DNA of 64,000 nt from a candidate division Zixibacteria bacterium HGW-Zixibacteria-1 (GTDB lineage Bacteria > Zixibacteria > MSB-5A5 > GN15 > PGXB01), in the NCBI GenBank assembly GCA_002838945.1, contig PGXB01000014.1, forward strand, positions 1-64,000, written 5' to 3'. Below the pieces are notes generated by a model. That model saw only the letters and a list, made by a program, of their open reading frames with translations. It was not told where the DNA came from and did no database searches. The translations under genes and the position numbers were made by a program. The stretch's first letter is position 1; each line of letters begins with the position of its first letter. Positions 20,377-22,889 of this stretch are shown piece after piece.

Positions 20377-20400
20377 TAAAAAGGCCGCCTGACGGCGACC
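20377..20400 (-). terminator. Rho-independent terminator
   Basis: On the minus strand GGTCGCC and GGCGGCC form a 7-bp stem with a short loop, followed by a U run (A run at 20377-20382). It ends the thioredoxin/cysteine-rich-peptide transcript 40 bases past its last stop. Confidence 0.75.
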
Positions 20401-20439
20401 CTTACCCCGGCATATCTTTCCTTTAAGGTGGTAAATTAG

Positions 20440-20703
20440 TTAGTCGCAGTTGCCCTGCCAGTCGGAGTGACACCACTCCCACTGACAGCCGCAGCCAAGC
20501 TGGTCGTCGCAATGATAAACATAGTACGGCCAGTTCGGATTGGGGCATTTGGGTCCGGTATCACAACTGAATATATAATAAGACTGCGGCCCGAAGCAGG
20601 ATATAAGGCTGGCATTGGCATTGTCCGCGGTCACAATCGACAGCCCCGTACCCATAGCACAGGCCAATAAGAAAATCGATAGAACGCACAGAACTTTTTT
20701 CAT
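20440..20703 (-). CDS. Small exported cysteine-rich protein (8 Cys)
   Basis: I do not recognise this family. The 87-residue precursor starts at ATG 20703, preceded by a strong AAGGAGG. It has a Sec signal peptide with a likely cut after A-N-A at residue 31. The mature part of about 56 residues has eight cysteines (36, 47, 53, 65, 71, 73, 78, 86) and four tryptophans, a pattern expected of a small disulfide-knotted or metal-binding secreted protein. It lies 29 bases after an exported thioredoxin-like gene and shares its terminator, so the thioredoxin may oxidise or isomerise it, or be its redox partner. Possible roles include a bacteriocin-like peptide, a copper or haem binder or a surface adhesin; none can be chosen. 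Confidence 0.72.
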   Translation of the reverse strand: MKKVLCVLSIFLLACAMGTGLSIVTADNANASLISCFGPQSYYIFSCDTGPKCPNPNWPYYVYHCDDQLGCGCQWEWCHSDWQGNCD

Positions 20704-20732
20704 GTCAAACCTCCTTGTTCTTCTGCCGGGGA

Positions 20733-21302
20733 TCAAAAATATTCATTCAGAATACTCTCCGTAAATTCATAGCCGAAACCACCTGTGGCGAATTTCACGA
20801 TATTGTGCCCCTTGGTGCCGTCAACACCGATCATGGTCGGCATCCCCTGAATGTGCAGGGCATCCATCATGTCCGAAGTGACCGCATAAACCGGCAAGTC
20901 GGTCAACGGCGTAAATGCTTCCGGTTCCTGGCTTAGAATAATCACCCGATATTGCTTCTCCCCGATTATCTCCGACGTCCTGAAATATTCCATCAGATCA
21001 TGACATGGTTTGCACCCTTCGGCGACAAACGCAATAATGGCTTTCTGACCATCAAGAAGACTGCCGATATTGATCGCGTTCCCGTCATTATCGGCAATCT
21101 GCAGATCGGGAAACTGATCCCCGATTTCCAGATTGGTGCTGTTATGCATCTTATCCTGCGGGATTGTCTGGTTGCCCGAACCGGTCAGACCGGACCGGAC
21201 GGCGATAAACATCCCCAGATAAACGCCGGCGGCAATGGTAACGCAGATGATCGCCGCCTTGATTAAAAATGATTTGTAGTTGGTTGTTGCAGTACTGGCC
21301 AT
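20733..21302 (-). CDS. Membrane-anchored TlpA/AhpC-like thioredoxin
   Basis: The 189-residue protein has one transmembrane anchor (about 12-35), then a thioredoxin-fold domain with active site G-C97-K-P-C100 and a later cis-proline loop (I-Q-G-M-P-T). The region G-D-Q-F-P-D-L at 61-67 is the usual TlpA/redoxin opening. It should face the periplasm and act in thiol-disulfide exchange. It is the first gene of a two-gene transcript with the 8-cysteine peptide. A dockerin protease with cysteine-decorated calcium loops lies just upstream but behind its own terminator. Confidence 0.82.
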   Translation of the reverse strand: MASTATTNYKSFLIKAAIICVTIAAGVYLGMFIAVRSGLTGSGNQTIPQDKMHNSTNLEIGDQFPDLQIADNDGNAINIGSLLDGQKAIIAFVAEGCKPCHDLMEYFRTSEIIGEKQYRVIILSQEPEAFTPLTDLPVYAVTSDMMDALHIQGMPTMIGVDGTKGHNIVKFATGGFGYEFTESILNEYF

Positions 21303-21497: not shown

Positions 21498-22889
21498 CTA
21501 CTGCATGGGGCCCGGCTCGGGGCCGTTCTTATACAGGAAATTAACCAGATGCGTCACATCGAGCAGGTTGCAGGACCCATCACAATTGACATCATCGCCC
21601 ATCTCGCAAGTCGGGGCCGGATCGCTCTTATATAGATATTTTATCAGGTAAGTCGCATCCAGAAGATTATAATTGCAGTTGCAGTCGGCATCGCCGGCGA
21701 TGCCGTCGTTTATCACCACCGTGAAATATTTCAAATACTTGACGAACGGGTCGGATGAATCCTCGACCCTGATACCGAAAGTGCATGATTTGGCCCGGGT
21801 CGGGAAACCGTGCAGAAGCCCGTCCGTCTCGAGCGTCAGGCCGTCGGGAAGGAACCCGACCTGCCGGTAGAAACTGTACGGCGGGGTCCCTTCGGCCGCC
21901 GCAAACTGGAACTGGTATTCCCCGGGGGCGCACAGCTTGTCCCCCGCCGGAAGGAGCTTGTCGGTCGTGAAAGCCACATTATCGATATCGAGCAGAGCCG
22001 CGGCGGTGCCGAAATTGCAGGAGCCATACTTGATCCAGAAATAACCGTCATCACCCCAGTTGGCCCCCCAGCTGTTCTTGACACGCCAGGCGCCCACACC
22101 GCCGCACATATTGTCATCCCAGCCGACAATCAGTACGGCATGATTGACCCCCGCCGAGTCATCGGCATGATCGTAACATCCCTGGTCATACCAGTTGAAA
22201 TTATCATACACGAAAAAGGCCACCGCCACCGGCGCGGTCATGACCGCCGTCTTGATGGCGCTGACATTATTGGGAATCGCGGTCCATGAGTTGCAGGTGG
22301 CATAGACGGGGTACTGACCCTCGGTGCATGGCACCTGATCATTGGCCGCATACGGCATGTATGCTTCCAGTATCGAACCATAGTCGCGGAAATGCGTGTA
22401 GGCGTAGTCCATCCATCCGCCGCTGCATCCCCAGCCGCCGGACACGCACGACAAAATCTGCTGTTCGGAGAGATCGACATCGACCTGCCGCTGAATTTTG
22501 TAAATTGCCTCAAGGGCGCCGACCGCGGCAAAAATCCAGCAGGAACCGCAGCCGCCCTGGTTGCGAACGCCGGTCACCTTGCCCGAATCTTCCCAGTTGA
22601 ACGTTGACGGGAGATCTTCGACCGCAAGCTTCAATGAGCCCGGCTTCAGATGCGCGCTCCAGATCTCTTCCCAGTTATCGGGCAATTTCAGGCCGGCCAT
22701 GTTGCGTCGCTGTTCGGGGGTGTAGTCGGTGATAACCGGATTTATAGCCGCCGTCCAGTAATAGCCGTCGGTATCGATTTCTTTTTGTATGGCTTGAAGT
22801 TCTTCCTGAAGGTTTTCAGCGGCGAAAGCCGGGCTGATTAACAACAAAGTCGTGAGGATAAACAGCGGCACCGAGATAAATTTATTCAT
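21498..22889 (-). CDS. Secreted papain-like (C1A) protease with dockerin pair
   Basis: The 463-residue precursor has a signal peptide ending at A-F-A-A (about 24), a short pro-region, and a C1A protease domain with oxyanion Q111, nucleophile C117 in G-C-G-S-C-W, H250 in V-N-H-A-V-L and N272 in K-N-S-W-G. An Ig-like putative domain (about 310-390) follows, then two dockerin calcium loops with D-x-D/N-x-N/D...L-L-D. Dockerins bind cohesins on scaffolds or the cell surface. Unusually, both loops carry extra cysteines (first loop at positions 4 and 6; second at 4 and 8), and a fifth sits in the linker, so the dockerin may be disulfide-stapled. All catalytic residues are present. It has its own terminator. 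Confidence 0.9.
   Translation of the reverse strand: MNKFISVPLFILTTLLLISPAFAAENLQEELQAIQKEIDTDGYYWTAAINPVITDYTPEQRRNMAGLKLPDNWEEIWSAHLKPGSLKLAVEDLPSTFNWEDSGKVTGVRNQGGCGSCWIFAAVGALEAIYKIQRQVDVDLSEQQILSCVSGGWGCSGGWMDYAYTHFRDYGSILEAYMPYAANDQVPCTEGQYPVYATCNSWTAIPNNVSAIKTAVMTAPVAVAFFVYDNFNWYDQGCYDHADDSAGVNHAVLIVGWDDNMCGGVGAWRVKNSWGANWGDDGYFWIKYGSCNFGTAAALLDIDNVAFTTDKLLPAGDKLCAPGEYQFQFAAAEGTPPYSFYRQVGFLPDGLTLETDGLLHGFPTRAKSCTFGIRVEDSSDPFVKYLKYFTVVINDGIAGDADCNCNYNLLDATYLIKYLYKSDPAPTCEMGDDVNCDGSCNLLDVTHLVNFLYKNGPEPGPMQ

Follow-up and report, generated by a model that had tools for sequence, protein, structure and literature searches.

A thioredoxin-fold CxxC protein encoded beside a small secreted disulfide peptide is a known arrangement in bacteriocin operons, with PedC accompanying pediocin PA-1 and BdbA/BdbB accompanying sublancin 168, and co-expression of PedC raises the potency of recombinant pediocin (PMC4919988). 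Here we describe a gene pair of this kind from a 64,000-nucleotide (nt) stretch of contig PGXB01000014.1 of HGW-Zixibacteria-1 (the whole stretch is referred to hereafter as the window, its own genome as G000), in which a membrane-anchored thioredoxin-like protein is followed by the precursor of a predicted secreted eight-cysteine mini-protein. The Zixibacteria module shares with pediocin-type operons the CxxC thioredoxin-fold protein next to a small cysteine peptide; whereas the pediocin and sublancin operons hold ATP-binding cassette (ABC) exporters and immunity proteins and encode peptides with two disulfides, the module has Sec-type leaders, three to six potential disulfides and arrays of diverse paralogues. 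We hold, at a probability of roughly 0.6, that this is a phylum-wide module in which a membrane-anchored, outward-facing thioredoxin-like thiol-disulfide oxidoreductase is dedicated to rapidly diversifying small secreted cysteine-rich proteins; on our best reading it would work in a mode analogous to that of PedC/BdbB.

For the enzyme itself, the comparison is with the ResA/TlpA-type thioredoxins (PDB 1st9, 4nmu; Redoxin/AhpC-TSA superfamily), which resemble the window protein in N-terminal anchor, outward domain, CxxC and conserved proline. Our thioredoxin profile (A5) matches chains of ResA and its relatives at roughly 1e-8 to 1e-10, placing ResA among the best solved relatives, but the window thioredoxin scores only 27 bits against a curated ResA cut-off of 170 bits (NCBIfam PRK03147) and lies below the curated cut-offs for Redoxin/AhpC-TSA, of which it is a weak relative only. 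The genetic context also departs from that of ResA: the partner here is a cysteine-rich peptide, and no recurrent cytochrome maturation gene adjoins.

The gene pair in the window

The pair and its elements are as follows (basis of each assignment in brackets).

20733-21302, minus strand: membrane-anchored TlpA/ResA-like thioredoxin, 189 residues, CKPC, invariant Pro155 at the cis-Pro position (sequence and profile comparison)
20704-20732, minus strand: intergenic stretch of 29 nt from thioredoxin stop to peptide ATG, holding an AAGGAGG ribosome site (sequence)
20440-20703, minus strand: precursor of the predicted secreted eight-cysteine mini-protein, 87 residues, coding 20443-20703 and stop codon 20440-20442 (open reading frame and relatives)
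20611-20703, minus strand: Sec-type leader, 31 residues, ending ANA, a putative signal peptidase I site (AxA rule)
20443-20610, minus strand: mature peptide, 56 residues, eight Cys, four Trp, net charge -5 (after the predicted cut between ANA and S)
20384-20396, minus strand: terminator-like hairpin GCCGTCAGGCGGC then a T run, after the gene pair (consensus match only)

A preliminary description of this locus had proposed a membrane-anchored CKPC thioredoxin and an 87-residue precursor whose mature 56 residues hold eight cysteines and four tryptophans; both reading frames, their spacing and the residue counts are borne out. The thioredoxin active site reads C97-K-P-C100, and the membrane segment lies at the N-terminus. 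A single terminator had been thought to end both genes: the hairpin and T run are indeed present, but because two such sites were found against 1.2 expected by chance, this evidence is weak by itself. In a uniform search for small signal-peptide cysteine-rich open reading frames (ORFs), the window yields exactly one, this precursor, and ten shuffled windows together also yield one. The reading frame and cysteine framework of the peptide recur in relatives.

Linkage of thioredoxin and peptide across the phylum

In a first round, 60 related genomes were searched separately with the window peptide and the window thioredoxin, and matches to the two stood side by side in several of them. A profile built from 24 thioredoxins was then run on 132 genomes from the phylum, whose named relatives are recorded as Candidatus Zixiibacteriota or FCB group, giving 68 genes in 47 genomes; a peptide profile matched in 30 of the phylum's genomes, many of the weaker matches being uncertain. 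The CxxC is retained in 67 of 70 thioredoxin relatives and a hydrophobic N-terminal segment is visible in nearly all members of the subfamily.

Around each of the 68 thioredoxins we looked for small ORFs that have a ribosome site, an N-terminal charge followed by a hydrophobic stretch, and at least four cysteines in the remainder. Such a secreted-type ORF lies on the same strand within 1.3 kb of 59 of the 68 thioredoxins (43 genomes), with one to eight peptide genes beside a thioredoxin; none was found on the opposite strand beside these genes, nor in 90 kb of background sequence. Among control loci (30 generic redoxins from five genomes and eight of the DsbD family) a neighbour of this type occurred only three times, once at a gene already in the subfamily and twice beside distant redoxins reading CSFS in place of CxxC. 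These two (L220 and L224; G024:C130 and G024:C186) adjoin 10-Cys secreted-type peptides, and may represent a non-redox form of the pair. On a tree that included 23 generic redoxins, 21 of them fall in one separate group, and peptide-linked redoxins cluster strongly (12 changes against a shuffled mean of 26.8), although not strictly as one clade. Linkage and conservation are established. The preliminary description had asked whether thioredoxin and peptide co-occur in other genomes, and had named two findings that would count against their pairing (homologues always far from thioredoxins, or a frame that is not conserved); co-occurrence is the rule in this subfamily and almost never seen for generic redoxins, and neither adverse finding was made.

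Nine thioredoxins are unlinked. In four cases the contig ends less than 250 nt downstream, and one of the four (G027:C310) shows a partial peptide by the peptide profile; in G022 the contig runs on for 1.06 kb. The thioredoxin of the same-genus relative G001 carries an in-frame TAG and has no peptide after it (a draft genome, in which sequencing error is possible), and in G069 the CxxC reads SPHC, one cysteine being lost, and a peptide is not seen; co-decay of thioredoxin and peptide is possible in both. Downstream of the TAG-bearing gene, a stretch at 1709-1867 of L073 (G001:C371), AAGGCAACATCTCCGCGGACAGGAATGTCCGCGCTACGG, resembles a dispersed repeat.

When 281 flanking ORFs were compared all against all, no other recurrent partner gene emerged near the modules, nor any recurrent ABC exporter or immunity gene, immunity proteins below 90 residues not being excluded by this comparison. 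Just upstream of the window thioredoxin (21498-22889, minus strand) lies a protease of the papain family that also matches Ig-like (He_PIG) and dockerin models weakly; a papain-family protease also neighbours the thioredoxin in G001.

A variable family of cysteine-rich peptides

We catalogued 104 peptides, with a median mature length of 58 residues and a mean charge of about -3. Cysteine counts of 8 (43 peptides), 6 (24), 10 (20) and 12 (6) predominate, and the number is even in 98 of 104 (94%), or in 55 of 58 when only the closest peptide is counted for each thioredoxin. Mature parts contain 14% Cys, 7.1% Tyr, 2.8% Trp and 9.6% Pro, with few His; the leader is 31 residues long in 49 of the 104. 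Tandem arrays reach eight genes (G018:C60). Among paralogues the leader is for the most part better conserved than the mature sequence (in G033:C3, identity 0.73 versus 0.32, Cys excluded). Peptide copies come and go, since one syntenic spot near folP and lepA holds seven, one and none in G033, G038 and G037, respectively. Positive selection among the peptides is not demonstrable, since synonymous sites are saturated and pN (nonsynonymous divergence) lies below pS (synonymous divergence).

The window peptide has DTGPxCxNPxxPYYxY in common with the class from G018, G024 and G031, and a cysteine framework ending CxC-x4-C-x(n)-C in common with the G033 class; combining the motif of one with the framework of the other, it therefore bridges both. 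A DNA pattern for TG[PA]xCxNPxxPYY, which covers one peptide class only, matched just six contigs over 85k genomes, all Zixibacteria/FCB, and a single-peptide scan of viral contigs gave no relatives of the window peptide.

As the preliminary description had surmised, the peptides are not recognisable as a known family: none that fits was found in Pfam, NCBIfam, PHROGs, PADLOC or PDB, and the literature searched held no account of such peptides. DUF6520, JUQZ and AimP were weak matches and were set aside, the JUQZ and AimP alignments spanning the leader only; the PDB bacteriocin 6lwz matched at chance level (E value 0.39). The NVEALA peptides of Bacteroidota (PF14055) are likewise short exported cysteine-containing precursors; this lead gave no match among 79 members of the peptide family and none above cut-off in the genome. 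Eukaryotic venom-like and defensin-like disulfide-rich peptides are alike in conserved leader, variable mature part and conserved cysteines, but no sequence or fold relation to them was found. Structure prediction was confident for a G024 relative (from 19 sequences), giving three beta strands with a predicted local distance difference test (pLDDT) score of 90.9 and a predicted template modelling (pTM) score of 0.69. This model had no match among PDB or viral structures (Foldseek, VIA-align), which argues weakly for a new fold, Foldseek being weak for proteins of 60 residues.

Redox setting and proposed mode of action

Ten genomes were examined for redox partners (eight with a linked module or its remnant and two without, G000 included). 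DsbA, DsbB, VKOR and Thioredoxin_4 models matched in none of the ten, the same searches being positive in control genomes, although absence of these four is no proof of absence of an oxidase. Nine of the ten carry a DsbD-family protein. Separately, peroxiredoxin-like ORFs have an in-frame TGA where, or close to where, the active-site Cys would stand, e.g. FTFV[TGA]PTEL (G000:C31:79522-79950; G018:C34:62790 and 63229; G024:C25:2132; G033:C4:95747), suggesting from sequence that they are selenocysteine peroxiredoxins.

We envisage that the peptides would be exported by Sec and cut after AxA. Beyond the inner membrane their paired cysteines would form disulfides, and during folding the adjacent thioredoxin would act on these cysteines. 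The thioredoxin would most likely be a reductase/isomerase recharged by DsbD, and less likely the oxidant itself; once mature, the peptides would be released or displayed and would act extracellularly. We regard secretion, disulfides and dedicated folding as probable.

Several observations weigh against this scheme. Apparently intact thioredoxins at G037:C1 and G078:C1:2705836 have no peptide that we could find; some peptides, about ten of them in G018 and one in G033, have no subfamily thioredoxin beside them (both genomes also hold a linked one); and two distant linked redoxins read CSFS, for which thiol exchange at a CxxC site cannot be the full explanation. The mature window peptide is predicted poorly (pLDDT 67.7). 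Without the four oxidase/DsbA models, moreover, disulfide formation is unexplained, and the cysteines could stay reduced.

Alternative explanations

A more specific form of our reading takes the peptides as antagonistic, bacteriocin-like secreted effectors, the arrays as a diversified set and the thioredoxin as their maturation enzyme. Antagonism is our leading guess for the peptides' role, and the gene arrays, the conserved leader before a variable mature part, the shifting copy number near folP and lepA and the PedC and BdbA/BdbB precedents are all consistent with it; the lack of a recurrent adjoining immunity gene, ABC exporter or double-glycine leader, a negative mean charge unlike that of most membrane-active peptides, and the failure to demonstrate positive selection keep this form tentative.

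Alternatively, the peptides might be redox or thiol-buffer partners, carrying electrons or guarding envelope thiols rather than being folded by the thioredoxin. The tight gene pairing fits, and a DsbD-family protein without DsbA, DsbB or VKOR suggests a reducing route outside the membrane, yet a carrier would hardly be expected to vary so extremely in sequence or to come as several paralogues per thioredoxin, and the peptides lack a common CxxC site; we regard this as unlikely. More improbable still is metal binding (metallothionein-like or at zinc sites), with the thioredoxin keeping cysteines reduced. It would suit the high cysteine content and the missing canonical oxidase, but is disfavoured because counts of 6 and 10 are no less usual than 8 and 12, the mature parts are rich in aromatic residues and proline and poor in His, and a beta fold is predicted; metallothionein-like binders have repeated CxC/CxxC and few aromatics, and no repeated motif of that sort is common to the peptides. 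Finally, that the linkage merely reflects common descent of a single chromosomal locus, the genes being functionally unrelated, is hardly credible: several loci are syntenic (hutU to the mot genes in one family, folP to lepA in another), but the pair occurs in many different contexts, with the peptide either before or after the thioredoxin, and in two or more copies per genome at different places, always on the same strand.

Implications

Our preferred reading remains a thioredoxin dedicated to variable secreted cysteine-rich proteins, and the linkage at 59 of 68 loci supports the undescribed system that the preliminary description had suspected. This kind of arrangement is already known from bacteriocin operons; what appears to have gone undescribed, as far as the libraries and papers searched show, is the family of peptides, how diverse it is and how widely it occurs across the phylum. 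About a hundred new mini-proteins of disulfide type thereby come into view outside known families, each with a candidate folding enzyme alongside, in a little-studied phylum in which the usual periplasmic disulfide machinery was found in none of the ten genomes. The pairing makes it testable in E. coli whether a TlpA-like protein serves as dedicated foldase or oxidase for one peptide family. A bolder proposal, which we consider doubtful, is that a phylum without recognisable DsbA, DsbB, VKOR or Thioredoxin_4 makes its extracellular disulfides via small membrane thioredoxins, each of them dedicated to a particular set of highly variable secreted mini-proteins; if true, oxidative folding in the phylum would be distributed and substrate-specific, and the disulfide-rich proteins it secretes would form a new bacterial class.
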